Assembly (NCBI RefSeq): GCF_004126535.1
Contig: NZ_PPCV01000010.1
Location: 1-64,000 of the forward strand
DNA: 64,000 nt
Direction: 5' to 3'
Source: Propioniciclava flava
GTDB lineage: Bacteria; Actinomycetota; Actinomycetes; Propionibacteriales; Propionibacteriaceae
Both the position numbers and the translations under genes were made by a program. Shown here in pieces: positions 980 through 17,186 of this stretch. The notes beneath the pieces are model-generated. The model worked only from the letters and a program-made list of their open reading frames with translations, was not told the DNA's origin and ran no database searches. How positions within the stretch are numbered: position 1 is the stretch's first letter; every line of letters begins with the position of its first letter.

Positions 980-1532
980 GGACTCGGTACCTAATCTTGA
1001 ACGGCTCCGAGAGTTCCAGGAGGCGTATCGGCTGCCCGTAACCGACATCGCGCGGCAGGCTCCAGCACAGGCTCTTCACTCGCTGCGAGACGCCACGAAG
1101 AACGCACCAGAGAACTACCGTCCGTATTTGGATGAGGCAGTGGACTGTTACGAAGCTGGCGCATATCGCGGCGCCGTGCTGATGGTGTGGGCGGCCACTA
1201 TGGAGCACATCTACTCTGTGATCGAGGGTCATCGACAGGGATTCAAACTCCTCGAAACGGAGAACTTCAAGCGTTACGAGAAGGCGAGCTTCTACCGAAA
1301 GATCAGGAAGAAGAACGACTTACTGTATGTCAACGACGGGAATCTGCTGCTGATTTGCGAAGACGCCGGGTTGTTCAACAAGAACGCGCGCAGCATTCTC
1401 GAAGATGCTTTAAAGACGAGGAACCGTTGCGGGCATCCGACCGGCTACGTCGTTGGTCGCGAAGAAGTCGTCGTGTTCATTGAACGCCTAATTAACAACA
1501 TCATCAGCGGGGCGATGGTCGACTGGGACTAG
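966..1532 (+). CDS. HEPN-like protein (putative RNase domain), second gene of two-gene module
   Basis: 188 residues from the ATG at 966, which overlaps the end of the upstream gene. The frame stays open further upstream, but that part is out-of-frame shadow of gene one. The protein is predicted all-helical. Near the end it has RNRCGH, an R-x4-H motif, followed by PTGYVVGREEVVVFIERLI, which is the typical ending of HEPN/DUF4145-like proteins. In HEPN nucleases the Arg and His of R-x4-6-H form the RNase active site. The coupled winged-helix-type partner and the type I R-M genes next door fit an abortive-infection or toxin-type module. That role is inference. Confidence 0.65.
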   Translation: MTASEDSVPNLERLREFQEAYRLPVTDIARQAPAQALHSLRDATKNAPENYRPYLDEAVDCYEAGAYRGAVLMVWAATMEHIYSVIEGHRQGFKLLETENFKRYEKASFYRKIRKKNDLLYVNDGNLLLICEDAGLFNKNARSILEDALKTRNRCGHPTGYVVGREEVVVFIERLINNIISGAMVDWD

Positions 1533-2005
1533 AGTTAGTCCACCCTGCCCAGCGCGTTAGCCCCGGGCGCGCTCGGAAGGAATCCCTTCGGGATCGGAAT
1601 GCGCGTGACGCTCGACCGCGCGTCACGTAACGGCCGGGTATCGAGAACTCCCCGCCTCGTCTTGACGGCTGATCGTCCCGCATCGCAGGTGCCAGATAGC
1701 ACGATCGCCTTGCGAGTACCCCTTGAGACGCTCCGGTCGAGATGTGGCTGGGGCCGACGGGCCGGGCGAGTCCGGCGGGTAAATCGAGGTCACTACCACT
1801 CGTGGACTCGCGACGCGAATCCCAATCGAACAGGCAGGTCTGTCCGAGTGTCGGCACGACAAAGGCGGCCCGACAGGTATCGCGTACTGTCGCGAAAGAA
1901 GCAATGCGCGGTTGATCGAGGATCGTGCCGACCCTTGCGTGCTTGGCTGATTGTGAAAATAGAGGCGTGCACGCGGCTGCACCGCCAGCGATGTTCGCGC
2001 TGGCC
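1533..2005. other. Intergenic region between convergent HEPN gene and hsdR, no gene seen
   Basis: About 470 bases. Open frames on both strands give Arg/Ser/Pro-rich translations without recognisable motifs or good ribosome binding sites. A short hairpin (ATCCC-TTC-GGGAT, 1582-1594) is the only local structure noticed. I see no gene here. Confidence 0.5.
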
Positions 2006-5000
2006 TCAGCCCCTAGAATCTTCATCCCCCGAGGCAAGTCCGCGGAACCGCTCGAAGAATCTGGAGAGCGCTTCGATGACCCGCTTCTTCTTGTCGCCGT
2101 GGTTGGACTCGCGGTTGAACCGTGACACTGGCGGCAAGATGCGGGTGATCTCAGTTCCCGCCGTGCGCAGCTGTCCGTCCCGGAACGCCTCATCCACGAA
2201 CGACTGCGTCTCCTCCAGCTTGAGCTTGTGCGCTTCGATGAGCTCCTGAAGCTCAGCCTCGCGCTTCGCGGAGATATACGACTGCCACTGCTCATCGACC
2301 GCGCACTGCAGCGACACCGACTCGACGAAGTCCTCGACGAGGTCGCGCTTGCTGCGCAGGGTCGGGCTCGCGTCGACCGCGCGCGTGATCTCGGCACGGA
2401 CTTCCTTGTCGTCGCCGTCGCCCTTCTCGGCGCGGAGCTTCTCGACGAGCATGAGGATGTAGTCGACGTTGATCTCGACCTGTTTGACGAGCTCGATTTC
2501 GAACACGACGTCGTCGTTGATGACTTCTCTGTCGCTGTCGCGGTCGCGCGTGTACTCGTCGCGGAGCCGCAGGTAGATGCTGGTGTAGTCCTGCCGCTGT
2601 CGCTCGGTGAGTGGATCGTTGCCGTCGAAGTCGTCGAACGATGTGAGGATGTTCTGCAGCCGCAGGATCGCGCCGAACAGCTGGATGAAGTCCTTCTGCG
2701 CCTGCTCCCCCACGATCTGCTGCCCGATCGGGAAGTGCGTGAGCAGCTCCGTGACCTTGTCGACGTACTCGCCGTAGTAGTCGCCGTACGGTTTCAACAG
2801 GACGACGCCGCGGGCATCCTTGTTGCCGAACAGCTCCAGCGCGGCGTTCGTCTCTTCCTCGAGGTCGCGGAAGGCGACGATGTTGCCATAGGTCTTCACC
2901 GAGTTGAGGATGCGGTTCGTGCGCGAGTACGCCTGGATCAGGCCATGGGCGCGCAGGTTCTTGTCGACGAACAGCGTGTTCAGGGTCGTCGCGTCGAAGC
3001 CGGTGAGGAACATGTTCACCACGATGACCAGGTCGATCTCGCGGTTCTTCATCCGCTGCGACAGGTCCTTGTAGTAGTTCTGGAACCGATCGGCACTCGT
3101 GTCGTAGCTGGTCCCGAACATGTCGTTGTAGTCCTGGATCGCGTCTTCCAGGAACGAGCGCGCGTCAAGGTCGAGCGCATCGGTGTCGAACGCTTCGTCA
3201 TCGAGGATGCCGTCGGCTTCGGCCTCGTTCGCACCGTAGCTGAAGATCAGCCCGACCTTCAGCCGCTTGTCCGGTGGCAGCTCCTCCATCTGCAGCTGGA
3301 ACTGGTTGTAGTAACGGCGTGCGGCATCGATCGACGCGGTCGCGAACAGGGCGTTGAAACCGCGAACCCGCTTCCGTTCCTTGACCGCCTCAGCCTGACG
3401 CCTGCCCCGCACCGAGTCGGCGACGTTCATCACGACGCCGTGTTCGTAGCTCGACGAGCGCTTCGTCTTCTGATCGAAGTGCTCCAGGGTGTATGCCACG
3501 ACGTCCCGGATCCGACGCACATCCAGGAGAGCTCGCTCACGGTCGATCGCTGACACCTGCGAGTCGTCGGGGTTTCCGACCTTGATGGTATTGATGTAGT
3601 CGATCCGGAACGGAAGCACGTTCTTGTCTGTGATGGCGTCGACGATCGTGTACGTGTGCAGCTTGTCGCCGAACGCCTGCTCGGTCGTGCGCAGCTGGGG
3701 GTTGCCACCGCTGCTGGCGTTCGCGGCGAAGATCGGCGTGCCGGTGAACCCGAACAGGTTGTACCGCTTGAAGGCGCGTGTGATGTCGGTGTGCATGTCG
3801 CCGAACTGCGAACGGTGGCACTCATCGAAGATGATCACCGCGTGGCCCGAGAACACCTCGTGGCCCTTGTTCGCCTTGATGAACGTCGACAGCTTCTGGA
3901 TCGTCGTGATGATGATCCGCGCACCACGGTCCTCAAGCTGCTTCTTCAGCACCGCCGTGGACGTGTTCGAGTTCGCCGCACCCTTCTCGAACCGGTCGTA
4001 CTCACGCATCGTCTGGTAGTCGAGGTCTTTGCGGTCGACGACGAAAAGCACCTTGTCCACACTCGGCATCTTCGATGCGAGCTGCGCTGCCTTGAACGAA
4101 GTGAGCGTCTTGCCCGATCCGGTCGTGTGCCAGACGTATCCTCCGGCATCGAGTGTGCCGAGCGTCTTGTAGTTGGTCGAGATCTGGATCTTCTGCAGGA
4201 TCCGCTCGGTGGCGACGATCTGGTACGGCCGCATCACCAGCAGGTCCCGATCCGCGGTGAGCACGCAGTACTTCGTCACGATGTTCAACAGCGAGTGCTT
4301 CGCGAAGAAGGTCTTCACGAACGCCGTCAGCTCGGTGATCGGCTTGTTGTTCGCATCCGCCCACCAGCTAGTGAACTCGAACGAGTTGCTCGTCTTCCTG
4401 CCCTTGCCAGCACCACCAGACTTCTTCTGCTCGGCCAGGTGCCTGTTGCGAGTGCTGTTGGAGTAGTACTTCGTGAGCGTGCCGTTGCTGATCACGAACA
4501 GCTGCACGTACTCGAACAGGCCCGAGCCCGCCCAAAAGCTGTCGCGCTGGTACCGGTTGATCTGGTTGAACGCCTCCCGGATGTCCACGCCGCGACGCTT
4601 CAGTTCGATGTGCACCATCGGCAGCCCGTTGACCAGCACGGTCACGTCGTAACGGTTGGCATACTTCGCACCACCATCGCTAGCGTCACCATCGCCGCGC
4701 GCGATCTCGTACTGGTTGATGACCTGCAGTCGATTGTTGTGGATGTTCGTCTTGTCAATCAGCGCGATGTTCTTCGTCGTCCCGTCGTCGCGCCTGAGGA
4801 TCTGGACGTGATCCTCCTGCACACGCACAGTCTTCTCGACGATGCCGTCGTTGGCACCTGCGACCTTGGTTGTGAAGAACTGCTCCCACTCGGCATCCGA
4901 GAAGATCATCCTGTTGACCTTCTCGAGCTGAATGCGCACGTTCGCGACCAGCTCCGCCTCCGACGTGATCGGCAGGTAGTCGTACGCCTGCCCCTCAAGG

Positions 5001-5140
5001 AGTCGGATCAACTCCTTCTCGAGCCCAGACTCCGACTGATACGCATCAGCCTGCAACGGATCGTGAACATACTCAGCGACAACCGTACTCTCCGACGAGA
5101 CAGCGATCGGATCGTACGTATGCGCCGGCGCATCACTCAC
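2006..5140 (-). CDS. hsdR: Type I restriction enzyme, R (motor and nuclease) subunit
   Basis: 1044 residues, normal for HsdR. The N-terminal nuclease domain has a PD-(D/E)xK-type core near residues 155-180 (YDVTVLVNG...ELKRRG). A superfamily 2 helicase motor follows, with Walker A HTTGSGKT (about 340), DECH box DECHRSQFG (about 437), TGTP (about 465) and a later NMFLTGFD motif. The C-terminal part is helical, as expected for binding the methylase. The complex cleaves unmodified DNA after ATP-driven translocation. The GTG start overlaps the hsdS stop by four bases (GTGA), so R is translationally coupled to S. R is last in the operon, so it is made after the methylase parts. Confidence 0.96.
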   Translation of the reverse strand: MSDAPAHTYDPIAVSSESTVVAEYVHDPLQADAYQSESGLEKELIRLLEGQAYDYLPITSEAELVANVRIQLEKVNRMIFSDAEWEQFFTTKVAGANDGIVEKTVRVQEDHVQILRRDDGTTKNIALIDKTNIHNNRLQVINQYEIARGDGDASDGGAKYANRYDVTVLVNGLPMVHIELKRRGVDIREAFNQINRYQRDSFWAGSGLFEYVQLFVISNGTLTKYYSNSTRNRHLAEQKKSGGAGKGRKTSNSFEFTSWWADANNKPITELTAFVKTFFAKHSLLNIVTKYCVLTADRDLLVMRPYQIVATERILQKIQISTNYKTLGTLDAGGYVWHTTGSGKTLTSFKAAQLASKMPSVDKVLFVVDRKDLDYQTMREYDRFEKGAANSNTSTAVLKKQLEDRGARIIITTIQKLSTFIKANKGHEVFSGHAVIIFDECHRSQFGDMHTDITRAFKRYNLFGFTGTPIFAANASSGGNPQLRTTEQAFGDKLHTYTIVDAITDKNVLPFRIDYINTIKVGNPDDSQVSAIDRERALLDVRRIRDVVAYTLEHFDQKTKRSSSYEHGVVMNVADSVRGRRQAEAVKERKRVRGFNALFATASIDAARRYYNQFQLQMEELPPDKRLKVGLIFSYGANEAEADGILDDEAFDTDALDLDARSFLEDAIQDYNDMFGTSYDTSADRFQNYYKDLSQRMKNREIDLVIVVNMFLTGFDATTLNTLFVDKNLRAHGLIQAYSRTNRILNSVKTYGNIVAFRDLEEETNAALELFGNKDARGVVLLKPYGDYYGEYVDKVTELLTHFPIGQQIVGEQAQKDFIQLFGAILRLQNILTSFDDFDGNDPLTERQRQDYTSIYLRLRDEYTRDRDSDREVINDDVVFEIELVKQVEINVDYILMLVEKLRAEKGDGDDKEVRAEITRAVDASPTLRSKRDLVEDFVESVSLQCAVDEQWQSYISAKREAELQELIEAHKLKLEETQSFVDEAFRDGQLRTAGTEITRILPPVSRFNRESNHGDKKKRVIEALSRFFERFRGLASGDEDSRG

Positions 5141-6384
5141 GACGCCAGCTCCTTGAACGTCAACAGCCGATCACGATAGTGCTCGTACTGCTTGCGACGG
5201 GCAGCGAGTTCTGCCGGGAGACCGGTACTGATGTCGCCCACAAGAGCGTCAAACTTGTCAAGCGAGCGGACGATTGATTCCTGTTCCTCTAGCGATGGCA
5301 CAGGGATCTCAATCGCGCCAAGACCCATCGCCGACAACCTCTTGACCTTTGCGCGCGACACGTGGCGCTCCTTCTGCTGATGGAAATCAGCAGTCTGAAC
5401 CGCATATGCCACGTACTTCGGGTTGAGCTCGGAGCTAAAAGTAAACGTGTCGTCGTGCGTCGCGATCGGCTCTTCACCGAGCCAAGCCACTGCCTTCCCC
5501 ACGTCTGCGACTGTCTCGCCGACGCCAGCGAACACAACGCTGCCGGATTGCGCATAACGAAGCTGATCCCGCAGCTCAGCTCGAACATTCCGCAAGGCCT
5601 GTGTCGCAGAAGTCCCGTAGGCAGTGTAGATCTCTCCGTAGTGGAGGCTTGGGATACCCGACTCAACGACGTCATTCTTGGTGAACCGGCGGCCTCGAAC
5701 GAATGTCCCTAGATCGGCGAGCCTGATTCTTCGCCTACCGTTGGCACCCACGAGTTCGTCGCGATAGTGCTTGTACTGGGCGCGCCGCGCTTCCAGCTCC
5801 GCTTCCAGCTCCGCTTCCAGCTCCGCTTCCAACTGGGTGAACTTATCCAATACTTGCACGATCTCGCGCTGGACCTCGAGAGGCGGCACGGGGACGCGGA
5901 ACCCACGCATCACGCTGGCGTTCAAGTTGTTGATAGTCGAGGTCGAGAGCGAGCGATCGAGGTGAGTCTTGAATCGCTCACCCGTGAGAAGATGAAACAG
6001 GAATCGACTTTCCACACGCGCATCAGTCGTGCGAAGCACCGCCATGAAGCCACCAAACGTCTGCTCGATGTCCTCACGAATGTATGCGACCTTGCCTATG
6101 TGATCGCGGCTACCGCTGCCAGCACAGATGAGTGTGTCGCCAGCTCGCAGGCGCTGTGCTTCGCGAACACGGACATGACTTGAAACACGCTTCACCTCCT
6201 CAAAGTTGAGCGTGTTGGAGGCGAGCGTGATGTTGTTGGCGCGGAGCACCTGAATCTCCCCCGCTGAATCCTCGTCGTTCTTGCTGTAAGTGATGCCACG
6301 CACATAGTCGGCGATATCGAGAACGCCAGTATGCTCCACCCCGTCCGGGCAAAGTTCCTGAATCAGGTCATCGATGCGGCTCAC
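5137..6384 (-). CDS. hsdS: Type I restriction-modification specificity subunit
   Basis: 415 residues with two half-similar target-recognition domains (about 15-180 and 225-380), each ending in a long helix whose tail reads R-x-Q-Y-x-H-Y-R-D-x-L (ARRAQYKHYRDELV and ARRKQYEHYRDRLL). HsdS chooses the two halves of the bipartite DNA target and docks two HsdM and two HsdR. The central spacer helix contains AELEAELEAELEA, encoded by 12-bp tandem repeats. In the EcoR124 family, changing the number of four-residue repeats here changes the spacing of the target halves. GTG start, overlapping the hsdM stop by four bases. Confidence 0.95.
   Translation of the reverse strand: MSRIDDLIQELCPDGVEHTGVLDIADYVRGITYSKNDEDSAGEIQVLRANNITLASNTLNFEEVKRVSSHVRVREAQRLRAGDTLICAGSGSRDHIGKVAYIREDIEQTFGGFMAVLRTTDARVESRFLFHLLTGERFKTHLDRSLSTSTINNLNASVMRGFRVPVPPLEVQREIVQVLDKFTQLEAELEAELEAELEARRAQYKHYRDELVGANGRRRIRLADLGTFVRGRRFTKNDVVESGIPSLHYGEIYTAYGTSATQALRNVRAELRDQLRYAQSGSVVFAGVGETVADVGKAVAWLGEEPIATHDDTFTFSSELNPKYVAYAVQTADFHQQKERHVSRAKVKRLSAMGLGAIEIPVPSLEEQESIVRSLDKFDALVGDISTGLPAELAARRKQYEHYRDRLLTFKELAS
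5789..5836 (-). repeat. 12-bp tandem repeats in hsdS central linker
   Basis: Three perfect copies of GCTTCCAGCTCC (plus-strand reading, 5789-5800, 5801-5812, 5813-5824), then a decayed fourth beginning GCTTCCA at 5825. Each unit encodes four residues of the A-E-L-E helix, so gain or loss of a unit keeps the frame. Position and period match the TAEL repeats of type IC specificity subunits. Confidence 0.9.
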
Positions 6385-7949
6385 TTAGAGCCCTCCAGAT
6401 CCGCCACGATCTCGTCGATCGCTGTCCGCAGCTCCGCTTGGCGAGCCACGATGCGCGCGATCTCGGCGTTCAGCTTGACGATGTCGACCTGCTCGCGGGT
6501 ATCCTCCGCCTCCACGTACGACGACACCGCGATGTTGTACTCGTTAGCGGCAATGTCCTCGTTGCTGACGACGGCGGTGAAGTAGTCCTCGGGACCGCGG
6601 GTCGTGAATGCTTCGAGGATCCTCGCCTGGTGCTCCTCGAGCAGCTTGTTCTTGTTGCCGACGCGCTTGAACTCGGCTGACGCGTCAATGAACAGCACGT
6701 CGCTGGTCTTCTTCGACTTCTTCAGCACGAGGATGCAGGTCGCGATCGTCGTGCCGAAGAACAGGTCCGGCGGAAGCTGGATGACCGCGTCCACGTAGTT
6801 GTTGTCGACAAGGTACTGGCGGATCTTCTTCTCCGCCCCGCCGCGGTACAGCACACCGGGGAACTCGACTATTGCGGCCGTGCCGTTGACGGCGAGCCAG
6901 CTGAGCATGTGCATCGTGAACGCGAGGTCGGCCTTCGATTTCGGCGCGAGGACGCCGGCTGGCGAGAATCGCTCGTCGTTGATCAGGAGCGGGTTGGCGT
7001 CGCCTTCCCACTTGATCGAGTAGGGCGGGTTGGAGACGATCGCCTCGAACGGCTCGTCGTCCCAGTGGGCGGGGTCGAGTAGTGTGTCGCCGTGCGCGAG
7101 GTTGAAGTCCGCGTAGTTCACGTCGTGCAGGAACATGTTGATCCGCGCGAGGTTGTACGTGGTCAGGTTGATCTCCTGACCGTAGAACCCCTGGCGGACG
7201 TTGTTCTTCCCGAGCACCTTGTCGAACTTCAGCAGCAGCGACCCCGATCCGACGGCCGGGTCGTAGACCTTGTTGACCTGCTTCTTGCCGACCACAGTGA
7301 TGCGCGCCAGCAGCTCCGAAACCTCCTGCGGCGTGTAGTACTCACCACCGGACTTACCCGCGTTGGCCGCATACATCTGCATCAGGTACTCGTAGGCATC
7401 ACCGAACAGATCGATCGAGTTGTCCTCCCACCGCCCCAGCGGCAGATCACCGATTGCGTCGAGCAGCTTCACCAGCTGCTGATTGCGTTTGGCGACCGTC
7501 GGGCCGAGCTTGTTGCTGTTGACATCCAGGTCGTCGAACAGACCCTTGATGTCTTCCTCACTGTCTGTACCCAGCGCCGACGCCTCGATGTTCTTGAAGA
7601 CCCGCTCGAGCGTCTCGTTGAGGTTCTCATCCCGCGCCGCACGCTTGCGAACGTTGGCGAACAGGTCGGACGGCAGAATGTAGAACCCCTTCTCCGCGAC
7701 AACCTCGTCGCGCGCGAACTCCGCGTCGGAATCCGCCACCCGCCGGTAGTCGAACGACGCGTCGCCCGCATCGTGCTCGTGCTTGTTGAGGTACGCCGTG
7801 AGGTTCTCGGAGATGAACCGGTAGAACAGCATGCCCAGCACGTAGGACTTGAAGTCCCACCCATCGACGCTGCCACGCAGGTCGTTCGCGATACGCCAGA
7901 TCGTCTTGTGCAATTCGGCTCGCTGCGCCTCTTTGGTGGTCGGTGCCAT
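6381..7949 (-). CDS. hsdM: Type I restriction-modification methyltransferase subunit
   Basis: 522 residues, usual for HsdM. The N-terminal helical domain (about 10-160) is followed by an adenine-N6 methyltransferase core with SAM motif I DPAVGSGSLLL (about 230) and catalytic NPPY (about 305). ATG start with a GAGGAG ribosome binding site. Methylates adenine in the target defined by HsdS and is needed for restriction too. First gene of hsdM-hsdS-hsdR, each junction overlapping by four bases. Base composition is visibly lower in GC than the haem and purine regions, consistent with horizontal acquisition. Confidence 0.97.
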   Translation of the reverse strand: MAPTTKEAQRAELHKTIWRIANDLRGSVDGWDFKSYVLGMLFYRFISENLTAYLNKHEHDAGDASFDYRRVADSDAEFARDEVVAEKGFYILPSDLFANVRKRAARDENLNETLERVFKNIEASALGTDSEEDIKGLFDDLDVNSNKLGPTVAKRNQQLVKLLDAIGDLPLGRWEDNSIDLFGDAYEYLMQMYAANAGKSGGEYYTPQEVSELLARITVVGKKQVNKVYDPAVGSGSLLLKFDKVLGKNNVRQGFYGQEINLTTYNLARINMFLHDVNYADFNLAHGDTLLDPAHWDDEPFEAIVSNPPYSIKWEGDANPLLINDERFSPAGVLAPKSKADLAFTMHMLSWLAVNGTAAIVEFPGVLYRGGAEKKIRQYLVDNNYVDAVIQLPPDLFFGTTIATCILVLKKSKKTSDVLFIDASAEFKRVGNKNKLLEEHQARILEAFTTRGPEDYFTAVVSNEDIAANEYNIAVSSYVEAEDTREQVDIVKLNAEIARIVARQAELRTAIDEIVADLEGSK

Positions 7950-8041
7950 GGGTCATTCTCCTCGCGCCGCTGCGCAATCACGATGTTGGGTTGTTTGCTC
8001 TCACGCTATCGGGTGCCACTGACACTCGGGCCTCCCGCATC

Positions 8042-8189
8042 ATCACCGCGTCGCGTAGAACGCCACAGCCGCTGCGGCCGTCACGTTCAACGAGTCGACG
8101 CAGCCCATAATCGGGAACGTGGCCCGGCGATCGAGCAGTGCATCTGTCTCCGGTGTGACGCAGTGGCCCTCCAGCTCACGCAGCGGGCA
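8042..8189 (-). pseudogene. Remnant of SpoU/TrmH-family RNA 2'-O-methyltransferase (C-terminal end)
   Basis: On the minus strand about 47 codons read through to a TGA at 8042-8044. They include FPIMGCVDSLNVTAAAAVAFY, which matches the conserved final motif of SpoU-type methyltransferases (P-M-x-G-x-V-x-S-L-N-V-x-x-A). No start codon or upstream domain remains: the reading frame stops just upstream, at the end of the XRE gene. The knotted SAM-binding domain is therefore missing its N-terminal part. It looks like what was left of a chromosomal gene when the XRE/hsd segment inserted or rearranged. Confidence 0.72.
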
Positions 8190-8432
8190 TCAATGTCGAA
8201 CGATCAGCGACTGGGCCTCAACTCCGAGTTGCTCTGCCAGGGCATCGACGGAGTCCAGGGTGAGGTTGCGCTCCCCACGCTCGATGCCGGCAAGGTACCG
8301 AGTCGACACTCCGAGTTCTTCGGCAAGACCTTCCTGCGACAGATGGCGCGCAAGACGCAGGTCGCGCACCTGCGCCCCAAGCACCTTCTTCAGCGGTTCT
8401 GTCACACATCCAGCCTCAGGTCTGGTAGTCAT
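8190..8432 (-). CDS. XRE-family helix-turn-helix regulator, size of an R-M controller protein
   Basis: 80 residues. LRLARHLSQEGLAEELGVSTRYLAGIERGERNLTLDSVDALAEQLG is a full XRE-type helix-turn-helix (residues about 23-70), and almost nothing else is present. This is the size and fold of R-M controller (C) proteins and Cro-like repressors. The ATG at 8432 has a poorly spaced ribosome binding site. A GTG at 8405 with GAGG upstream is an alternative start (71 residues). It sits about 240 bases upstream of hsdM on the same strand, and divergently from the zinc-finger gene at 8527. A perfect palindrome lies at its 5' end, suggesting autoregulation. Confidence 0.85.
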   Translation of the reverse strand: MTTRPEAGCVTEPLKKVLGAQVRDLRLARHLSQEGLAEELGVSTRYLAGIERGERNLTLDSVDALAEQLGVEAQSLIVRH

Positions 8433-8433
8433 G

Positions 8434-8446
8434 ACTTCCAGGAAGT
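8434..8446. promoter_or_regulatory. Palindrome, candidate operator for the XRE regulator
   Basis: ACTTCC-A-GGAAGT is a perfect inverted repeat immediately before the XRE start codon, with a further half-site-like CTTCCAG at 8452-8458. It sits in the 94-base gap between two divergent genes, so binding could control both. It also covers the ribosome binding region of the longer XRE reading frame. Confidence 0.55.
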
Positions 8447-8526
8447 TATCGCTTCCAGTTGCGGTCCAGGCGGGTCACGCACGACTCGCGCTGCAACCGC
8501 ATCAGACCTCGAAGGAGAGCGAGACG

Positions 8527-9414
8527 ATGTCCGATTCGCAGCAGATCCCCGACGGGAGCTCGACAGCTCTCCCCCGCGTCCTGCACACACCGCGTAGCCG
8601 CGCGTTGCTCTCGGAATCGTGGGCCCAAGCAGCGGAGGCAAAGCGGAGGGAGCGGGCAGGCGACAACCTGCAGCTGACGCACGAAGCCTATGCAGCGGGC
8701 GAACCATGTCGCGCGTGTGGGCGCGCCCTTCTCGGTGAGCCAGCCCTGGGAACTGATGAAGAGAGCCTTGCGCTGATCGATGCCGACAACGCCGAGTTCC
8801 GAGCCGAGCACACGGCATGCAACATGGGGGTTTGGCGTCTCGAGAACAACAGGGTGGAGCACTGCCATCTGTGCTGCCCGTTCCCGCCACTTTCGCCGAC
8901 TCAGCGCGATGAGCTCCGACAGCTCCTATACCCACCCTCGTTGCACATCGACCGCAGCGCCACTTGGCGAGTGGAACTGACCTGCCAGCACGTCGAGACC
9001 TTGGTCGGGCATTCCCCTCGCTACGTGGAGCCAACCGTCCAATGCACCGAATGCGCTGTCATCCGCGGCGTGGTCAAAGCCGTGCGAATCGATGACCAGG
9101 CGAAGGATGGTGACGACTGCAGCGACATCGAGGGCCTCCAGTCGGACTATCAACGACTCACAGATGAGCAATGGAGCTGGATCAAGCACATCGTTCACAC
9201 AGAAGATGGCCCTCGCCGCGGGCGGCCGCGCACTGACATACGCACGATCGTCGACGCCGCTCTCTACAAGACCCGCACCGGCATCCCGTGGCGCGAGCTC
9301 CCAGCAGAGTTCGGGTCATGGCAGACCGCCGTGCGCCGGCACAACCAATTGATCGCGAGCTCCCAGTGGGACGAGATCACTCGCACTCTGGCCAAACGAG
9401 ACCTGCCCCAGTGA
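8527..9414 (+). CDS. Zinc-finger-like protein fused to orphan IS5-type transposase N-terminal domain (DUF4096)
   Basis: 295 residues from ATG 8527, with GGAGAG nearby as ribosome binding site; the longer open frame upstream overlaps the XRE gene and is not used. The N-terminal half has several Cys/His pairs that could bind zinc: CRACG with EHTACN, HCHLCCP, and CQH with CTEC. The C-terminal 80 residues (LTDEQWSWIKHIV...RGRPRTDIRTIVDAALYKTRTGIPWRELPAEFGSWQTAVRRHNQL) match the helix-turn-helix DUF4096 domain that opens IS5-family transposases. The DDE catalytic domain is absent. It is probably a DNA-binding protein derived from a transposase, not an active transposase. Function unknown. Confidence 0.72.
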   Translation: MSDSQQIPDGSSTALPRVLHTPRSRALLSESWAQAAEAKRRERAGDNLQLTHEAYAAGEPCRACGRALLGEPALGTDEESLALIDADNAEFRAEHTACNMGVWRLENNRVEHCHLCCPFPPLSPTQRDELRQLLYPPSLHIDRSATWRVELTCQHVETLVGHSPRYVEPTVQCTECAVIRGVVKAVRIDDQAKDGDDCSDIEGLQSDYQRLTDEQWSWIKHIVHTEDGPRRGRPRTDIRTIVDAALYKTRTGIPWRELPAEFGSWQTAVRRHNQLIASSQWDEITRTLAKRDLPQ

Positions 9415-9713
9415 ACCGCGGCGTCGTTGAGGCGACCGCCTTTCGAGTCAGACTGCTTATTGAGTCAGCGCACCTGCCGAGAGATCGCGCGTCGAACGGC
9501 TTGAACCCAACCCGGAGCTGGCCAGCCGAGACTGCGTCCCAGAGACGCTCCCGCACCGCAGAAAGCAGAATCGGCCTCTGCAGGAGCTCCGCAGAGGCCG
9601 ATCAAAGTCCCAGGTCAGCGGGGCAAACGCTTAGCAACTGATGTTAAATCGGAACCCGTCCGCCGAGCCAGATCGGAAGCTGCGAGGGTAAAACCCCTGG
9701 TCAGAAGGCTTTT
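9415..9713. other. Intergenic region at right edge of the island, no gene seen
   Basis: About 300 bases between the zinc-finger gene and the 3' end of ychF. It contains one strong hairpin (listed separately) and a T-run TTTTTT at about 9709-9714 next to the ychF stop. Open frames here show no recognisable protein. This is the likely junction between acquired DNA and core genome. Confidence 0.45.
9570..9602. terminator. Hairpin, possible bidirectional terminator
   Basis: 12-bp perfect stem ATCGGCCTCTGC / GCAGAGGCCGAT with a 9-base loop, between convergent genes. On the minus strand it is followed by a T-rich stretch (TTCTGCTTTCT), so it could end ychF transcription. The U-tract is weak. Confidence 0.55.
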
Positions 9714-10787
9714 TTAGACATTGAATCTGAATTCAACCACGTCGCCGTCGGCCATCACGTAGTCCTTGCCCTCTAGGCGCATCTTGCCTGCGGCCTTCAC
9801 GGCGGCTTCGGAGCCGTGCTCGATCAGGTCGTCGAAGGAGACGATCTGGGCCTTGATGAAACCCTTTTGGAAGTCGGTGTGGATCACCCCGGCGGCTTCG
9901 GGGGCGGTGGCGCCCTGGGGGATCGTCCAGGCGCGGGCCTCTTTGGGGCCGCCGGTGAGGTAGCTCTGCAGGCCGAGGGTGTCGTATCCGGCGCGGGCGA
10001 GCTTGTCCAGGCCCGGTTCGGTGACGCCCATCTCGGCAAGGAACTCTCGGGCTTCGTCCTCATCCATTTCGACAAGTTCGGATTCGAACTTGGCGTCGAG
10101 GAACACGGCGTCCGCGGGGGCGACGAGGGCCCGCATCCGCTCTTGGAGTTCGGTGTTGGCGAGTTCGTCCTGGTCGCAGTTGAACACGTAGATGAAGGGC
10201 TTGGCCGTCAGCAGGAACAGGTCACGCAGGTCGGTGGTGTCCATGCCGGACGCGAAGATCGTGGTGCCGGAGTTGAGCACCTCCTGGGCGGCCTGCATGG
10301 CCTCCAGCTTGGGGCGCGTCTCCTTCTTGATCCGCGCCTCCTTCTCCACCCGGGGCAGCGCCTTCTCCAGCGTTTGCAGGTCGGCGAGGATCAGTTCGGT
10401 GGTGACGGTCTCGATGTCGTTGCTGGGGTTCACCGACCCGTCGACGTGGGTGACGTCGGCGTCCTCGAACACGCGGGTGACCTGGCAGATCGCGTCCGCT
10501 TCACGGATGTTGGCCAGGAACGCGTTGCCCATCCCCTCGCCCTGGGAGGCGCCCTTCACGATGCCCGCAATGTCGACGAAGCTGACCGTGGCCGGAATGA
10601 TCTTCTCCGACCCGTACACCTCGGCGAGCTTGGCCAGCCGCGGATCCGGCACCCCCACCACCCCAACGTTCGGCTCGATCGTCGCGAACGGGTAGTTCGC
10701 CGCGAGGACGTTGTTGCGCGTCAGCGCATTGAACAAGGTGGACTTGCCCGCGTTGGGGAGCCCGACGATTCCGATGGTGAGAGCCAC
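9714..10787 (-). CDS. ychF: Redox-regulated P-loop ATPase YchF (Obg family)
   Basis: 357 residues from GTG 10787, the standard YchF length, beginning [16 protein letters not shown] (P-loop). The switch region [20 protein letters not shown], the coiled-coil insert (about 130-190), the NCDQDE nucleotide-specificity region and the C-terminal TGS domain (about 275-357, ending VEFRFNV) are all present. YchF hydrolyses ATP more readily than GTP and binds ribosomes. A TAAGAT box ends 8 bases before the GTG, so translation may be leaderless. A longer in-frame start exists but adds residues not found in the family. Confidence 0.95.
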
Positions 10788-10795
10788 AATCCACC

Positions 10796-10801
10796 ATCTT
10801 A
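10796..10801 (-). promoter_or_regulatory. Candidate -10 box of leaderless ychF
   Basis: TAAGAT (minus strand), 8 bases before the GTG start, with no convincing Shine-Dalgarno sequence. Confidence 0.45.
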
Positions 10802-10874
10802 TGGGAACCATGAGCCCGGACGCCGACGCCTGGCCCGTCTTGACCGGGCTCCCGCCGCTCCGCAGACTCGGGGC

Positions 10875-11354
10875 ATGAGCGAGCACGAGTACCGGGTGGG
10901 GCTCACCTGGACGGGGAACCGCGGAACGGGCACCAGCGGCTACCGCGACTACGACAGGGCCGTCACGCTGCACGGGGCAGGTAAACCCGACCTGCTCGCC
11001 TCAGCCGATCCCCACTTTCGCGGGGATGACACCCGCTGGAACCCCGAGGAACTCCTCGTTGCCGCGCTGGCCGAGTGTCATCTGCTCAGCTACCTGCATG
11101 CCGCCGTCACGCTCGGGGTCGTGGTCGTGGATTATCGCGACACCGCCACCGCTGCCCTCACCCAATCCGGCAACGGCGGACGCATCACCTCCGTGACGTT
11201 GCGCCCTCACGTCACCGTCGAGGACGCCGCAATGGTGGACGCCGCCAGATCGGCCCACGCGCTCGCCCACGAGTGGTGCTTCATCGCCAACTCGGTCGCG
11301 TTCGAGGTCCGCATCGAACCGGAGACACTCATGGCACGCCCCACGCCCGAGTGA
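10875..11354 (+). CDS. OsmC-family protein
   Basis: 159 residues. The start MSEHEYRVGLTWTG and the motif ELLVAALAECHLLSYLHAA contain the helix cysteine of OsmC/Ohr proteins, which reduce organic hydroperoxides with paired cysteines. A second cysteine occurs at HEWCFIANS, in the expected second-helix position. The ATG is 87 bases from the divergent ychF start. CAGACT 6 bases before the ATG is a near -10 match. Substrate unknown; it could also be a structural OsmC relative without peroxidase activity. Confidence 0.85.
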   Translation: MSEHEYRVGLTWTGNRGTGTSGYRDYDRAVTLHGAGKPDLLASADPHFRGDDTRWNPEELLVAALAECHLLSYLHAAVTLGVVVVDYRDTATAALTQSGNGGRITSVTLRPHVTVEDAAMVDAARSAHALAHEWCFIANSVAFEVRIEPETLMARPTPE

Positions 11355-11368
11355 CGCTCGGCTCGGCC

Positions 11369-12643
11369 TCAGGCTCCCGCGTAGTAGGCGCTCAGCGCGG
11401 CGGCCAGCCACCCCGGATCCTGGACTCCGGCCAGTTCGCGGGTCGAGTGCATGCTCAGCAGCGGAATCCCGACATCGCACATGACCAGCCCCAAGCGCTC
11501 GGCCGTCATGGGGCCGATCGTGGAGCCGCACGGGACGGCGTTGTTGCTGACGAAATCCTGCACCGGCACGTCGGCGGCGGCGCAGGCCCGGCGCCACAAG
11601 GCGTTGCCCGCGGCGTCCGTCGTGTAGCGCAGGTTCGCGTTGTGCTTGAGCAGGGGGCCCGCGTTCAGCAGCGGTCGGTGATCCGGGTCATGCAGGTGCG
11701 GATAGTTCGGGTGCACAGCATGCCCGGCGTCCGCGGAGATGCACGAACTGCGCGCCAGCATCCGCTGCCAGGCCTCCCCTTCGACGCCAAGGGCCCCAGC
11801 GATGCGGCGCAGCACCTGCTCCAGCAACGGCCCGGCCGCCCCCGAGCGTGACCCGGAGCCGACCTCCTCGTGATCGAACGCCGCCACGACGGTGATGTCG
11901 TCGCCCTCCTCGGCGGCCAGCAGCGCGGCCACGCCTGCGTGCACCGACGAGAGGTTGTCCAGCCGCGAGGACGCGAAGAACTCCCCCGTCGGGCCGAACA
12001 CGGTCGGCGGCTGCGTGACATGGCAGTACAGGTCGTGCGCGACCACGTCGGCGGCGTCCAGACCTGTCTGCGCAGCGATGAGTTCCAGCAGATCCAGGTC
12101 GGGGCGCCCCACCGCGTACACCGGCTTGAGGTGCTGCTGGCGATCCAGATGCAGCGATTCGTTCACCGAACGATCCAGGTGCGGCGCCACCTGCGGCACG
12201 CGCAGCCATGCGGGCGTCGAGACGAGCACCTGACGCCCCTCCCGGGTGATCACCCGCCCGGCGACACCGAGTTCGCGGTCCAGCCACTGATTGAGCAGCG
12301 GCCCGCCATAGATTTCCACGGCGGCCTGCTGCCAGCCCGAACCGGACGCGCTGGGTTGCGGTTTGAGCTTCAACGCGGGCGAGTCGGTGTGCGCGCCGAC
12401 GATCCGGAACCCGCTTCGCGCAGGATCGACGTGGGCGGGGCAGCGCCAAGCCACGATCGCGCCGTCGCGGATGAGATAGCCGCTGCCCGGGGTCGCCGCG
12501 AAGGCGTCCGCTTCCTGTTGCTCAGCAAAACCCGCCGCAGCGAGGCGGCGACCCGCCTCAGCGGCGGCGTGGAAGGAACTGGGCGAGGCGGTGATGAAGG
12601 CTGCCAAGTCGTCGATGTGTGCACGGGCGTCCATGACTTCCAT
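11369..12643 (-). CDS. apeB: M18-family metallo-aminopeptidase
   Basis: About 421-424 residues. Metal-binding and catalytic motifs of the M18 family are visible: VGAHTDSPALKLKP (His/Asp), FDHEEVGSGSRSGAAGPLLEQVL (catalytic and metal Glu) and SADAGHAVHPNY (Asp). The C-terminal HSTRELAG supplies the last His ligand. These are dodecameric cytoplasmic enzymes that remove N-terminal acidic or neutral residues from peptides. Two in-frame ATG codons (12643 and 12634) are possible starts. Convergent with the OsmC gene, 14 bases apart. Confidence 0.93.
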   Translation of the reverse strand: MEVMDARAHIDDLAAFITASPSSFHAAAEAGRRLAAAGFAEQQEADAFAATPGSGYLIRDGAIVAWRCPAHVDPARSGFRIVGAHTDSPALKLKPQPSASGSGWQQAAVEIYGGPLLNQWLDRELGVAGRVITREGRQVLVSTPAWLRVPQVAPHLDRSVNESLHLDRQQHLKPVYAVGRPDLDLLELIAAQTGLDAADVVAHDLYCHVTQPPTVFGPTGEFFASSRLDNLSSVHAGVAALLAAEEGDDITVVAAFDHEEVGSGSRSGAAGPLLEQVLRRIAGALGVEGEAWQRMLARSSCISADAGHAVHPNYPHLHDPDHRPLLNAGPLLKHNANLRYTTDAAGNALWRRACAAADVPVQDFVSNNAVPCGSTIGPMTAERLGLVMCDVGIPLLSMHSTRELAGVQDPGWLAAALSAYYAGA

Positions 12644-12745
12644 CCTGCCCCACCAGGGGACCTATGACCGGGGCGTGGGAACAACCCGGGGGCATTCCCG
12701 CGGGGGACGCCCCAATTGTCGGAGCCTCCTGGCACGATCACCGAC

Positions 12746-14419
12746 ATGGACAACGTCGGCATTCTCCTGGTGGCCCTCCTGATCGGCGTCGCCCTCGGTG
12801 CGGGGGGCGCGTGGCTGGTGCTGCGCCGCGCCCCGGGCTCCCCCACCGAGGTCGCCAGTGAGCGGATGCGGGCGGCCGAGCAGACGGCCCGCGCCGATGC
12901 CGAACGCGCCCGCGCCGACATCGCCGCCGCCGAGGTACGCGTCAGTCAGGCCGTGGCACAGATGCAGGAGGCACGAACCGAAACGGAGCGCGCCCATCGC
13001 GCCGTGGCCGAAGCGCGGGCTGAGGCGTCCCGAGCCCAAGCGGCGGCAGCGGCGCAACAGGCCGATGCAGCGGCGTGGGAGGCCAAGGTGGTCGCCGCGA
13101 ATGCGGCTCGAGACGTCGCCACGGCCCGTGCCACCGAGATCGCTGCCGACCGGGACGCCCTGGTCAAAGAGTTCACCGTGCTATCAGGTCGGGCCCTCGA
13201 AGATCAGGGCCGCAAGGCTGATGCGAGCGCTGAGCAGCGCCTCAAGGCCACCGAGCAACTCATGACCCCCATCAAGGAGAGCCTGGCTGCGTTCAACACG
13301 CGCCTCTCCGAGGTGGAGAAGGCCCGCGTCCAGATGTCGACGGAGTTGGCCGGCCAGGTCCGTGCCGTGCAGTTCACCGGCGAGCAGTTGCGTCGCGAAA
13401 CCAACGCGCTCGCGACGGCGCTGCGTAAGCCGCAGGTGCGGGGTGCCTGGGGCGAACTCCAACTCAAGCGGGTCGCAGAGATGGCGGGCATGCTCGAATA
13501 CTGCGACTTCGTCCAGCAGGAGACTTCCGCCACCAGCGAAGACCGCGTGATCCGACCAGACCTCAAGGTGACCCTCAGCGAGGGTAAGTTCATCTACGTG
13601 GACTCGAAGGTTCCGCTGTCCGCCTTCCTTGATGCGCAAGAGACCGACAACGACGCCGAACGAGACCGCCTGCTGGGGCTGTTCGCCAAGAACGTGCGCA
13701 CCCACGTCGACCAGTTGTCGTCCAAGAACTACTGGAAGGCCGATCCGGGCACGCCCGAGTTCGTCGTCTTGTTCATCCCCAACGAGGCGCTCGGCTTCGA
13801 GGCGTTGCGTCTCATCCCCGACCTGCACGAATACGCCAACGCGCGCGACATCATCGTGGCGACCCCGACGACGCTCATCGCGCTCCTGCGGGCCATCGCC
13901 TATGGCTGGAAGCAGGCCAAACTGGCGACGGCCGCCGCCGAGGTCTCCCAACTCGGCCGGGAACTGTACGACCGCCTGGGCCGCATGGGGCACAACGTCG
14001 ACCGGCTCGGTCGAGCCCTTGGCAGCGCGGTCAAGGCGTACAACGCGTCGGTGGGGTCGCTCGAGACCCGCGTCATGGTGACGGCGCGCCGGTTCCGGGA
14101 TCTCAACGTCACCTCCGCCGACCTGGCGACCTTAACCACCGTCGAGGAACCGCTGCGGCAGATCGCGGCCCCCGAACTCGTCGAGGACGCCACCGCGGTG
14201 CCCTCCGCGGTCGGGCGCACACGCCGGGGTGAACTCACCCCGGGAGGCCTCCCGGCCGAAGCCGAGACCCTCGGCGGGGGCCCCGCCCCGCAGGCCGGGC
14301 ACCCCGATGACGCTTTCCCCGAGGCCACCGACCTCCACCGGGGCGAGCCCCCTCTCCTGGATCTCATCGGCGACGCCGACGGCGAGGCCGAACGTGAGCG
14401 CGGCACAATGGCCGGGTGA
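12746..14419 (+). CDS. rmuC: DNA recombination protein RmuC
   Basis: 557 residues. One N-terminal membrane segment (VGILLVALLIGVALGAGGAWLVL) is followed by a long Ala/Glu/Arg coiled coil (about 30-215). The conserved RmuC nuclease-like core comes next, with RGAWGELQLKRVAEMAGMLEYCDF, PDLKVTLSEGKFIYVDSKVPLSAF and PEFVVLFIPNEALGFEAL. RmuC limits rearrangements at inverted repeats. I chose ATG 12746 over an upstream TTG because the membrane helix follows directly. The C-terminal tail is longer and low-complexity. Its stop overlaps the ilvA start by four bases. Confidence 0.92.
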   Translation: MDNVGILLVALLIGVALGAGGAWLVLRRAPGSPTEVASERMRAAEQTARADAERARADIAAAEVRVSQAVAQMQEARTETERAHRAVAEARAEASRAQAAAAAQQADAAAWEAKVVAANAARDVATARATEIAADRDALVKEFTVLSGRALEDQGRKADASAEQRLKATEQLMTPIKESLAAFNTRLSEVEKARVQMSTELAGQVRAVQFTGEQLRRETNALATALRKPQVRGAWGELQLKRVAEMAGMLEYCDFVQQETSATSEDRVIRPDLKVTLSEGKFIYVDSKVPLSAFLDAQETDNDAERDRLLGLFAKNVRTHVDQLSSKNYWKADPGTPEFVVLFIPNEALGFEALRLIPDLHEYANARDIIVATPTTLIALLRAIAYGWKQAKLATAAAEVSQLGRELYDRLGRMGHNVDRLGRALGSAVKAYNASVGSLETRVMVTARRFRDLNVTSADLATLTTVEEPLRQIAAPELVEDATAVPSAVGRTRRGELTPGGLPAEAETLGGGPAPQAGHPDDAFPEATDLHRGEPPLLDLIGDADGEAERERGTMAG

Positions 14420-15693
14420 GCCACCTTCCGGTCGGTAGCCGCCGCGAGCCGCTGCCCGTCACCGCTGCCGACGTCGACACCGCGAGCCGCCGCCTCGCCG
14501 GGGTCATCTCCGAGACCCCACTTCAGTACAACGAACGCCTCTCCGAGGCGACCGGTGCGCAGGTCTGGTTGAAGCGCGAGGACCTCCAGCCGGTGCGGTC
14601 CTACAAGATCCGGGGCGCCTACAACCTCATCGCCCAACTCACCGACGACGAACGTGCGGCAGGCGTCATCGCCGCATCCGCGGGCAACCACGGTCAAGGG
14701 GTAGCGATGGCCTGCGCCGCCCTCGGTATCCGCGGCCGAATCTTCGTCCCCTCCACGACACCGCGCCAAAAGCGCGATCGGATGCGCCACTTCGGCAAGG
14801 AGTTCATCGAGCTTGTCGTGGTGGGAGACGCCTACGACGAGGCGTCCGCCGCAGCCAAGCAGGCGGCCGCCGAATCCGGCGCCGTCATCGTCCCCGCCTT
14901 CGACGACGCGCGCACCATCGCTGGGCAAGGCACCGTCGCCAAGGAGACCGTCGAACAACTTGGCCGTGAACCTGACCGGATCATCCTGCCCGTGGGTGGC
15001 GGCGGTCTCCTTGCGGGGAGCCTCGTCTGGCTGGATGCACGCTCCCCCAAGACATCCGTCACCGCCGCGGAACCCACCGGTGCGGCCTGCCTGGCGGCGG
15101 CGCTGGACGCCGGGCACCCCACCACCCTGGGCACCATCGACACGTTCGTGGACGGAGCGGCTGTCCGGCGCGCCGGGGATCTCACCTTCGCCATCGCTGC
15201 TCAGCACAACCCGCGCCTGCTGTCGGTCCCCGAGGGCGCCATCTGCACCGAGATGCTCGCGCTGTATCAGTCCGACGGGATCATCGCCGAACCTGCCGGG
15301 GCGCTGGCCTGCGCGTCGCTGCGGCTGGATCCGCCCCGCCCCGGCGAGGTCGTCGTCGCCGTGGTTTCTGGTGGCAACAATGACGTGTCCCGGTATGCGG
15401 AGATCGTCGAACGATCTCTGGTGTACGAGGGTCGCAAGCACTACTTCCTCGTCAGCTTCCCGCAGGAGCCAGGAGCGCTGCGCCGGTTCCTCGACGAGGT
15501 CCTTGGCCGCGATGACGACATCACCCACTTCGAATACGTCAAGCGCAGCAACCGCGAAATCGGCCCTGCACTCGTCGGCATCGAACTCGGGGATCCGACC
15601 AGCCTGCCGGGCCTCCTGGAGCGCATCGACCGCAGCCCGATCAAAGCTGAACGCGTAGACCCGTCCAGCCCGTTCTATCGATTCATGCTCTGA
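14416..15693 (+). CDS. ilvA: Threonine dehydratase (biosynthetic type)
   Basis: 425 residues, GTG start overlapping rmuC. The PLP lysine lies in RSYKIRGAYNLI, the substrate loop is SAGNHGQGVA, and the PLP-phosphate loop is VGGGGLLAGSL. The C-terminal third has an ACT-like regulatory domain beginning KHYFLVSFPQEPGALRRFLDEVL, the hallmark of the Bacillus/Corynebacterium-type IlvA. Converts threonine to 2-oxobutanoate, the first step to isoleucine, and is normally inhibited by isoleucine. Confidence 0.95.
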   Translation: MSHLPVGSRREPLPVTAADVDTASRRLAGVISETPLQYNERLSEATGAQVWLKREDLQPVRSYKIRGAYNLIAQLTDDERAAGVIAASAGNHGQGVAMACAALGIRGRIFVPSTTPRQKRDRMRHFGKEFIELVVVGDAYDEASAAAKQAAAESGAVIVPAFDDARTIAGQGTVAKETVEQLGREPDRIILPVGGGGLLAGSLVWLDARSPKTSVTAAEPTGAACLAAALDAGHPTTLGTIDTFVDGAAVRRAGDLTFAIAAQHNPRLLSVPEGAICTEMLALYQSDGIIAEPAGALACASLRLDPPRPGEVVVAVVSGGNNDVSRYAEIVERSLVYEGRKHYFLVSFPQEPGALRRFLDEVLGRDDDITHFEYVKRSNREIGPALVGIELGDPTSLPGLLERIDRSPIKAERVDPSSPFYRFML

Positions 15694-16352
15694 TGCAGGT
15701 CTACGCCCGCCCGTCGTGGCGCCTCACGCGCCAAATCCTCGCCGACCTGTTCGTGGTCGCCTGGGGGATCACGTGGTGGTGGGTGGGGCGCTTCACCGAC
15801 GGGGTGATCCGTGCAGTAGCCGAGCCGTCACGGCAAGCCGGTCGACTCGCCGACGACCTTCGCACGCAGACGGCGGACGTCGCCAACCAGGCCGCAGGCA
15901 TTCCGTGGGTGGGGGGCGGCCTGCGCCAGCCCTTCGATGGGATGTCGGGGACGCTCCACGACCTGTCCGCATCCGCGGCGACGCAAGTGGCGGCCATCGA
16001 ACAGACCGCCACCGTGGCGGGGGCCTTGGCGTTCGTGATCCCTGTGGCCCTCATGATCGTGATCTGGTTGCCGCGTCGCATCGCGTTCGCCCGTCGCGCC
16101 GCCGAGGTCGCGGCGCTAGCGGGCACCGTGGATGGCACTGATCTGCTCGGCCTACGCGCCCTCGCGACCCAGCCTGTGGGGGCCTTGCGGAGCATCGGCC
16201 CGGATCCGGTTGGCGCGTGGCGAACCGGAGAACCCGCCGCCCTAGCCGCGCTAGCCGACCTCGAACTGGCCCGCGCGGGCGTCCGCTCCCGCTCCCTGCC
16301 CCCACGGCCCCGGGACGCCACCGGCGCCGGAGACAACCCGGCTGCTCGTTGA
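15693..16352 (+). CDS. Unknown two-helix membrane protein
   Basis: 219 residues, starting one base inside the ilvA stop (TGATG), so probably co-translated. Two hydrophobic segments are visible: ILADLFVVAWGITWWWVG (about 15-32) and VAGALAFVIPVALMIVIWL (about 108-126). The loop between them is probably extracytoplasmic and helical, and the tail is Arg/Pro-rich and cytoplasmic. Not recognised beyond actinobacterial membrane protein. Confidence 0.75.
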   Translation: MQVYARPSWRLTRQILADLFVVAWGITWWWVGRFTDGVIRAVAEPSRQAGRLADDLRTQTADVANQAAGIPWVGGGLRQPFDGMSGTLHDLSASAATQVAAIEQTATVAGALAFVIPVALMIVIWLPRRIAFARRAAEVAALAGTVDGTDLLGLRALATQPVGALRSIGPDPVGAWRTGEPAALAALADLELARAGVRSRSLPPRPRDATGAGDNPAAR

Positions 16353-16419
16353 GGTAGCGCCCGCATCTCGTCGGGGCGGACTGCACCGACGACGACTTTT
16401 CGCGGAGACTCCCCGGCCA

Positions 16420-17064: not shown

Positions 17065-17070
17065 CCGTCG

Positions 17071-17076
17071 AATCTA
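17071..17076 (-). promoter_or_regulatory. Candidate -10 box of leaderless NmrA-like gene
   Basis: TAGATT on the minus strand, ending 6 bases before the ATG at 17064. No Shine-Dalgarno sequence lies between them. Confidence 0.5.
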
Positions 17077-17163
17077 GCGCCGCACACTGCCTATGTCAGC
17101 GGCTGTCCGGATTCACCCGTGCGTGGACTTGCGAAGAACTCCGTCCCCGCCCCGCGCCGGCGA

Positions 17164-17183
17164 GCCGCACGCCACCGTGCGGC
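17164..17183. terminator. Hairpin after the metalloprotease gene
   Basis: 8-bp perfect stem GCCGCACG / CGTGCGGC with a CCAC loop, three bases past the stop of the minus-strand gene at 17187. No U-tract, so it may be an RNA-end stabiliser. Confidence 0.45.
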
Positions 17184-17186
17184 GCC

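Follow-up and report, generated by a model that had tools for sequence, protein, structure and literature searches.

A 12-bp repeat array in a type IC hsdS gene of Propioniciclava flava as a probable ruler of the gap in its DNA target

The hsdS gene of a restriction-modification operon in Propioniciclava flava carries three perfect copies and one decayed copy of a 12-bp unit, each encoding four residues, within the helix that joins its two recognition domains. We consider it very probable that this array serves HsdS as a tetrapeptide ruler of the type IC kind, setting the gap between the half-sites of the DNA target. The mechanism is that of the known type IC gap ruler, already seen in EcoR124I/II, NgoAV and Mycoplasma pneumoniae. 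The anatomy of the array, the homogenisation of its units at the DNA level and in-frame differences in unit number among relatives were observed directly. Throughout, the window denotes the whole stretch of DNA that was analysed (64,000 nucleotides), and loci of relatives carry the prefix L.

Materials and methods

Relatives were gathered through an HsdM search of 198 genomes of the family (34 matched at E<=1e-100), an HsdS profile search of 391 genomes of the order (37 matched at E<=1e-40), searches of the class (9 of 394 genomes with a match) and the phylum (11 of 396), and a public genome set from which the best 80 of 513 relatives were taken as loci. Because the search patterns for these 80 public loci include EAELEARxxQ, the sample leans to EAELEAR-type repeats. 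With five more stretches of the order and family, 22 later loci (L193-L214) were added. The E. coli set comprised 5,426 complete genomes with 20,395 records.

Unit number, n, counts the tetrads in the variable part of the first spacer helix, D1; by this count EcoR124I (two TAEL) has n=3, EcoR124II (three TAEL) has n=4 and the window has n=4. Among 116 D1 rows, six were dropped by eye as non-HsdS helices (one each from L049, L062, L121, L124, L132 and L184, with the true D1 kept), and the D1 of L171 was re-ended. For the second helix, D2, 19 rows ending early at REIEL or KEIEL were read as four tetrads, and a spurious row from L131 was dropped. D1 rows were absent for 32 of 142 loci, 23 of which are re-fetches of already counted genes. 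Loci with the D1 of a counted locus (L113 as L097, L114 as L088, L123 as L080, L138 as L060) were not counted, and also left out were L127 (which reads as four tetrads), L045 (a half HsdS with four tetrads), and L064 and L065 (none). In L043, a family genome likewise left out of the D1 count, an undetermined base in the D1 array breaks the frame, possibly reflecting an assembly conflict from mixed unit numbers. Codon usage for the null model of unit identity was derived from the longest open frames (two at most) lying on the same strand as hsdS in each locus. Thresholds for simple repeats were 8 units for mononucleotides, 6 for dinucleotides, 4 for tetranucleotides and so on.

Results

Table 1. 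Features of the hsd operon and of the spacer helices of HsdS in the window.
Feature	Position	Strand	Basis or remark
hsdM	6381..7949	minus	upstream in operon, 4-bp overlap with hsdS; PF02384, PF12161
hsdS, type IC specificity subunit	5137..6384	minus	415 aa, GTG start; PF01420 in two stretches
hsdR	2006..5140	minus	downstream, 4-bp overlap with hsdS; EcoR124_C domain PF12008, 239 bits
Variable part of spacer helix D1, four tetrads + Ala, residues 183-199	5788..5838	minus	reading frame, predicted helix
Decayed unit (TQLE)	5827..5838	minus	8/12 bases as in perfect unit, counted by eye
Perfect 12-bp unit (AELE), first in reading order	5815..5826	minus	Tandem Repeats Finder, exact match
Perfect 12-bp unit (AELE), second in reading order	5803..5814	minus	Tandem Repeats Finder, exact match
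Perfect 12-bp unit (AELE), third in reading order	5791..5802	minus	Tandem Repeats Finder, exact match
Matching part of second helix D2, residues 379-395, DALVGDISTGLPAELAA	5200..5250	minus	four tetrads, without DNA repeat

The genes hsdM, hsdS and hsdR form a single minus-strand operon with overlapping genes (Table 1). Pfam searches identified N6_Mtase and HsdM_N, Methylase_S in two stretches and, on HsdR, five HsdR-type domains above cut-off (including EcoR124_C) together with DEAD. Among solved structures, the best five matches of HsdR score 784-787 bits (E about 1e-235) and include 2w00/7bst and 4be7, 'EcoR124II R protein', with 2w00 occurring in EcoR124I complex entries too; HsdM matches TIGR00497 at 729 bits, and the best solved match for HsdS, again of EcoR124 type, scores 108 bits. 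Type IC, a class defined by complementation or cross-reaction with EcoR124 subunits, is the assignment to which the operon points: HsdR is of EcoR124 type by PF12008 and its solved matches, HsdM is closer to EcoR124 M than to type IA M (614.5 bits for its best solved match, 7bst_D, the EcoR124 M protein, versus 60 bits for EcoKI M), and HsdS has two recognition domains joined by helices, as judged from two PF01420 stretches, the predicted model and a structural match to EcoR124I S. HsdS also bears tandem tetra-amino-acid repeats in its central conserved region (AELE x3), a feature given in PMC10030836, where TAEL, LEAT, SEAL and TSEL tetrapeptide repeats are described as typical for type IC HsdS. 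A type IC hsdM-hsdS-hsdR operon, as proposed in an earlier sequence-only reading of this DNA, is thus present in complete form, with its closest solved relatives being of EcoR124 type.

The window's own genome yielded one HsdS match at E<=0.001 (3 candidates scored; very divergent copies could be missed), and an inverting hsdS locus was rejected since a second hsdS cassette was not found in the genome at this threshold. Of 13 genomes in the genus, 6 (its own included) matched HsdS at E<=0.001, with the top one among the others reaching 42% identity over a partial protein.

Additional arrangements of the operon were encountered among relatives. In two genera, hsdM is split at its NPPY motif by an element of ~13.4 kb (L062, about 4660-18028; L063, about 1177-14715), and the splitting stretches are 94% identical. 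The domain search, confined to L063, identified a phage-type integrase, an MmeI-family type IIG enzyme and a PLD-SNF2 helicase, such that this element would appear to be one defence system seated within another. Many family members (L014-L034) carry an extra gene between hsdM and hsdS, which by eye we take to be Mrr-like, RhuM-like or DUF1016-like.

Closer inspection of hsdS located perfect copies of the plus-strand unit TTCCAGCTCCGC at 5791, 5803 and 5815, with no further exact copy in the 64 kb on either strand. On the coding strand the array reads ACCCAGTTGGAA, three times GCGGAGCTGGAA and GCG, giving TQLE-AELE-AELE-AELE-A, a segment of 51 nt when the leading codon is included (5788-5838). 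Exact matching and Tandem Repeats Finder therefore confirm the array of three perfect copies and one decayed copy that had been placed at 5789..5836, a position correct to within 2 bases (units 5791-5838). Its description as heptad-like has to be dropped, the AELE unit being a tetrad of just over one helical turn. The array tops the 16 Tandem Repeats Finder rows of the window (score 88, next 85; 100% matches, 3.7 copies), and three DNA-identical AELE units, given the protein, have a probability of 0.0144 under local codon usage; a chance origin was rejected on the basis of this top score and the codon-usage simulation.

An AlphaFold2 model of the window HsdS, built with 62 relatives (mean pLDDT 94.3, pTM 0.76), presents D1 as one helix (residues 169-213) that includes the AELE units at 187-198, and D2 as two helices (365-383 and 388-407) with a break at GLP. 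The model bears out the earlier placement of the repeat in the helix between the two recognition domains, namely D1. Foldseek searches with the model were led by type I S subunits and their relatives (1yf2, PacII, EcoKI), with EcoR124I S at rank 9 (TMq 0.61). For L135, which possesses ten tetrads, the model contains a single 68-residue D1 helix (163-230; mean pLDDT 89.7, pTM 0.60). Given that D1 is predicted as one unbroken helix in both models, added units would appear simply to lengthen it.

Among relatives, D1 measured exactly 4n+1 residues in 110 of 110 parsed cases, with n ranging from 1 to 10 (n=3 and n=4 in 50 each, n=2 in 6, and n=1, 6, 7 and 10 in one each). The later loci gave a D1 in 14 of 22 cases, of which 13 were new (L201 is the same gene as L111); all were again 4n+1, with one n=2, one n=5 and the others 3 or 4. 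Relatives from the same family as the window span 2 to 7 tetrads, and a repeated tetrad is missing in 18 of the 110 D1 segments. Four tetrads make up D2 in 111 of 115 relatives (exceptions L045, L057, L164 and L184), and in the window D1 and D2 are equally long. Since n=3 and n=4 account for 100 of 110 relatives, most unit numbers are probably selected against.

The spelling of the unit tends to be alike within a gene and differs between genes (GCGGAGCTGGAA, GCGGAGCTGGAG, GCAGAGCTGGAA, GCCGAACTCGAA and GCGGAGCTTACA). Two or more identical tetrads occur in 92 arrays, and in 62 of these the units are DNA-identical, where codon usage predicts 1.3 (20,000 simulations, maximum 9), or 1.34 when the array codons are left out; the other 30 have two spellings each and are not DNA-identical over the run tested. 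Codon bias was rejected as the source of identical units on this disparity. Such DNA identity within an array points to units having been gained and lost repeatedly.

An hsdS allele of E. coli plasmids illustrates such a change, occurring in 1,284-nt and 1,272-nt forms (L185 and L188) whose sole difference is one 12-bp unit (TAEL). In a spread sample of 60 from 1,396 matching E. coli records, 14 rows represent this allele, 8 spanning 1,284 nt and 6 spanning 1,272 nt. Across the 20,395 E. coli records the n=4 segment matches 178 and the n=3 segment 148 at >=99%, counts that are approximate in that full coverage was not forced.

Differing unit numbers on matching recognition domains were seen in the relatives L049/L054, L080/L083 and L185/L188, the first of these pairs coming from two species of one genus with 82% identity over 415 aligned positions and 4 versus 7 tetrads. 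In each of the six most similar pairs (>=67% identity in both recognition domains) the two members have different n (4/3, 4/7, 2/4, 3/4, 3/1 and 4/2), although this cut was chosen after seeing the pair list and the pairs are not independent. Over the broader set no signal linked recognition-domain lineage to unit number: 34 of 60 pairs with >=50% identity (57%) differ, versus 3,530 of all 5,995 pairs (59%). Differing n is thus equally common in same-domain pairs and in all pairs, indicating that unit number is not tied to the recognition domains. The sequence-only reading had envisaged that units come and go in frame, which is borne out among relatives by L049/L054, L185/L188 and the 62 of 92 homogenised arrays. 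That reading had also named a constant repeat number as evidence against switching; in the family and the E. coli plasmids the number varies, and there this condition does not refute the claim. These sequence comparisons lend strong support to turnover of unit number in the family.

Outside the same-domain pair table, the nearest gene to the window hsdS by first recognition domain is L193 (G618, from another family of the class), whose first domain is near-identical to that of the window up to D1 (63% identity over the whole alignment) and whose second recognition domain is unrelated. Its D1 has four tetrads as in the window, with one unit changed to AELK; given this substitution the L193 array is not homogenised. 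L193 and the window hsdS would therefore seem to represent a natural domain swap, with the seam at or just after D1. The same unit number combined with an unhomogenised array argues against fast turnover in the window's own line, while the unrelated second domain argues for domain exchange at the D1 seam.

We weighed three other accounts of the array against the ruler. Under the first, it is a static coding repeat in which the tetrads reflect the leucine spacing of a coiled coil, DNA identity follows from codon bias and the number is constant. The dominance of n=3 and n=4 (100/110), the shortness of the window array and the unit number shared with L193 are what this account would lead one to expect, but it is hardly credible in the face of DNA-identical arrays far above expectation (62/92 against 1.3), of allele pairs such as L185/L188 that differ by exactly one unit, and of D2, a helix of the same kind that has no repeat in the window and a near-constant length in relatives.

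A second account, which we consider possible but doubtful, regards D1 as a conserved seam for exchange of recognition domains, with unit number changing by unequal crossing-over rather than slippage. Unequal crossing-over is indeed the wording used in PMC3874165 for a change of TAEL number, many pairs besides L193 share one recognition domain and not the other, and the swap at or just after D1 in L193 led us to raise this account slightly, from a point at which we held it unlikely. Conversely, the sequences flanking the added unit do not differ between L185 and L188, which fits slippage at least as well, the exchange in L193 left the unit number unchanged, and the one hsdS-like gene found in the genome (E<=0.001) means that no partner was seen within the cell.

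The third account accepts the ruler and holds it locked: the spacer would be that of EcoR124II, with purifying selection maintaining three AELE units and no effective switching in the species. We give this somewhat more credence than the recombination account, though less than an even chance. The window has three units only, its four tetrads are one of the two commonest states (50/110) and equal the length of D2, L193, the nearest relative by first domain, has the same number, and the window hsdS carries no frame-shifting repeat at its junction. Against this, the perfect identity of the three units suggests turnover, and relatives from the same family span 2 to 7 tetrads. With three perfect units the array is short, so that change is probably slow, and the term 'switch' used previously probably overstates its rate.

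Screening around 110 D1 segments (143,312 nt) identified 29 simple repeats able to shift the frame, 12 of which begin 45-66 nt on, counted from where the RxxQY motif at the end of D1 begins, against 0.5 expected there if the repeats were spread evenly; the +45 to +66 stretch was chosen after the fact. The units of these junction repeats are GA, AG, CT, AAGC, and G and C tracts. Four loci (L045, L050, L153 and L210) have HsdS cut just after D1 by the tract, with the second domain left open in another frame, whereas L122, L088, L073, L049, L060 and L207 combine a junction repeat with a full-length HsdS. L122 (seven AAGC, full length) and L153 (six AAGC, cut) are near-identical at the start of the second domain. 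In the window hsdS, scanned as the re-fetched copy L074 with the junction letters inspected, no frame-shifting simple repeat exceeded threshold.

Repeats and additional domains were also noted beyond D2. L176, from Lachnospiraceae, carries (GACA)19 after D2 (1402-1477) with a third recognition domain in another frame, and the contigs of L181, L183 and L108 end in a repeat of the same kind. L140 (Candidatus Limimorpha caballi) has an HsdS frame with three helix segments and apparently three recognition-domain units.

Discussion

In the ruler that we favour, D1 would be a continuous helix fixing both the distance and the angle between the two DNA-recognition domains, to which each AELE unit would add slightly more than one helical turn. 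The repeated DNA may allow whole 12-bp units to be gained or lost in frame, through replication slippage or unequal crossing-over, and a change of one unit would make the non-specific gap in the methylated motif 1 bp longer or shorter and leave the half-sites, HsdM and HsdR unchanged, following the precedents of EcoR124I/II and NgoAV. By analogy with those enzymes we infer such a change of gap for the window enzyme; units may change at a useful rate in the window species.

The cited papers supply these precedents. Type IC enzymes alter the gap through the number of TAEL repeats, EcoR124I recognising GAAN6RTCG and EcoR124II GAAN7RTCG, and three repeats appear to be the optimum number (PMC3874165); the precedent invoked by the earlier reading, that two versus three repeats change the spacer, is sustained by this source. 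The window resembles EcoR124I/II and EcoDXXI in operon type, in D1 position and in a 12-bp unit for four residues (PMC3874165), and by unit count falls in the length class of the three-repeat EcoR124II/EcoDXXI form, which has a 7-bp gap in those enzymes. It differs from EcoR124I/II (TAEL) in its unit (AELE, GCGGAGCTGGAA), in its recognition domains and in its actinobacterial host. NgoAV of Neisseria gonorrhoeae likewise has tetrapeptide repeats in HsdS, one or two LEAT repeats giving a 6- or 7-bp gap (PMC6789123), but it also possesses a G tract, whereas the window hsdS is without a frame-shifting tract. In the hsdS family of M. pneumoniae, a 12-bp repeat for four residues similarly occupies the first dimerisation helix, and its AELS/TELS repeats vary in copy number between strains and laboratory passages (PMC4537597); contrary to that species, with up to 33 copies, many hsdS genes and no intact hsdR, one hsdS was found here, with three perfect units and an intact operon. 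Inverting or shuffling hsdS loci of the pneumococcal type also change specificity with HsdM and HsdR unchanged, but use extra hsdS copies and inverted repeats (PMC7394358), whereas one hsdS-like gene was found in the window genome.

The junction repeats of relatives sit in the same arrangement as the G tract of NgoAV, which yields a 208-residue half HsdS whose target is the palindrome GCAN8TGC (PMC9577141). Simple repeats occur in almost 10% of type I systems, and NgoAV is given as the hsdS case shown to vary in this way (PMC7394358). We hold the chances to be even that type IC HsdS across bacteria is a two-dial device, combining the D1 array with a frame-shifting repeat at the junction. The first dial, the 12-bp D1 array of 1-10 tetrads, would tune the gap; the second, an independently evolved junction repeat, would toggle between a full-length HsdS and a half subunit for which a palindromic target is expected. 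In some Lachnospiraceae, (GACA)n after D2 could act as a third dial that adds or removes a third recognition domain. The window hsdS carries the first dial only. NgoAV is the only two-dial case met in the literature consulted.

The comparative data make an old observation quantitative, in that D1 varies in steps of four, D2 is near-constant, units are homogenised and unit number is independent of the recognition domains. A quantitative rule for D1 would let sequence-based motif prediction include the gap, and, judging by the junction repeats of relatives, half-subunit switching may extend beyond the gonococcal case. If the ruler operates in this strain, one in-frame change of 12 bp would produce a new DNA target with the modification and cutting subunits unchanged, and sister cells could differ in phage resistance, DNA uptake and methylation.
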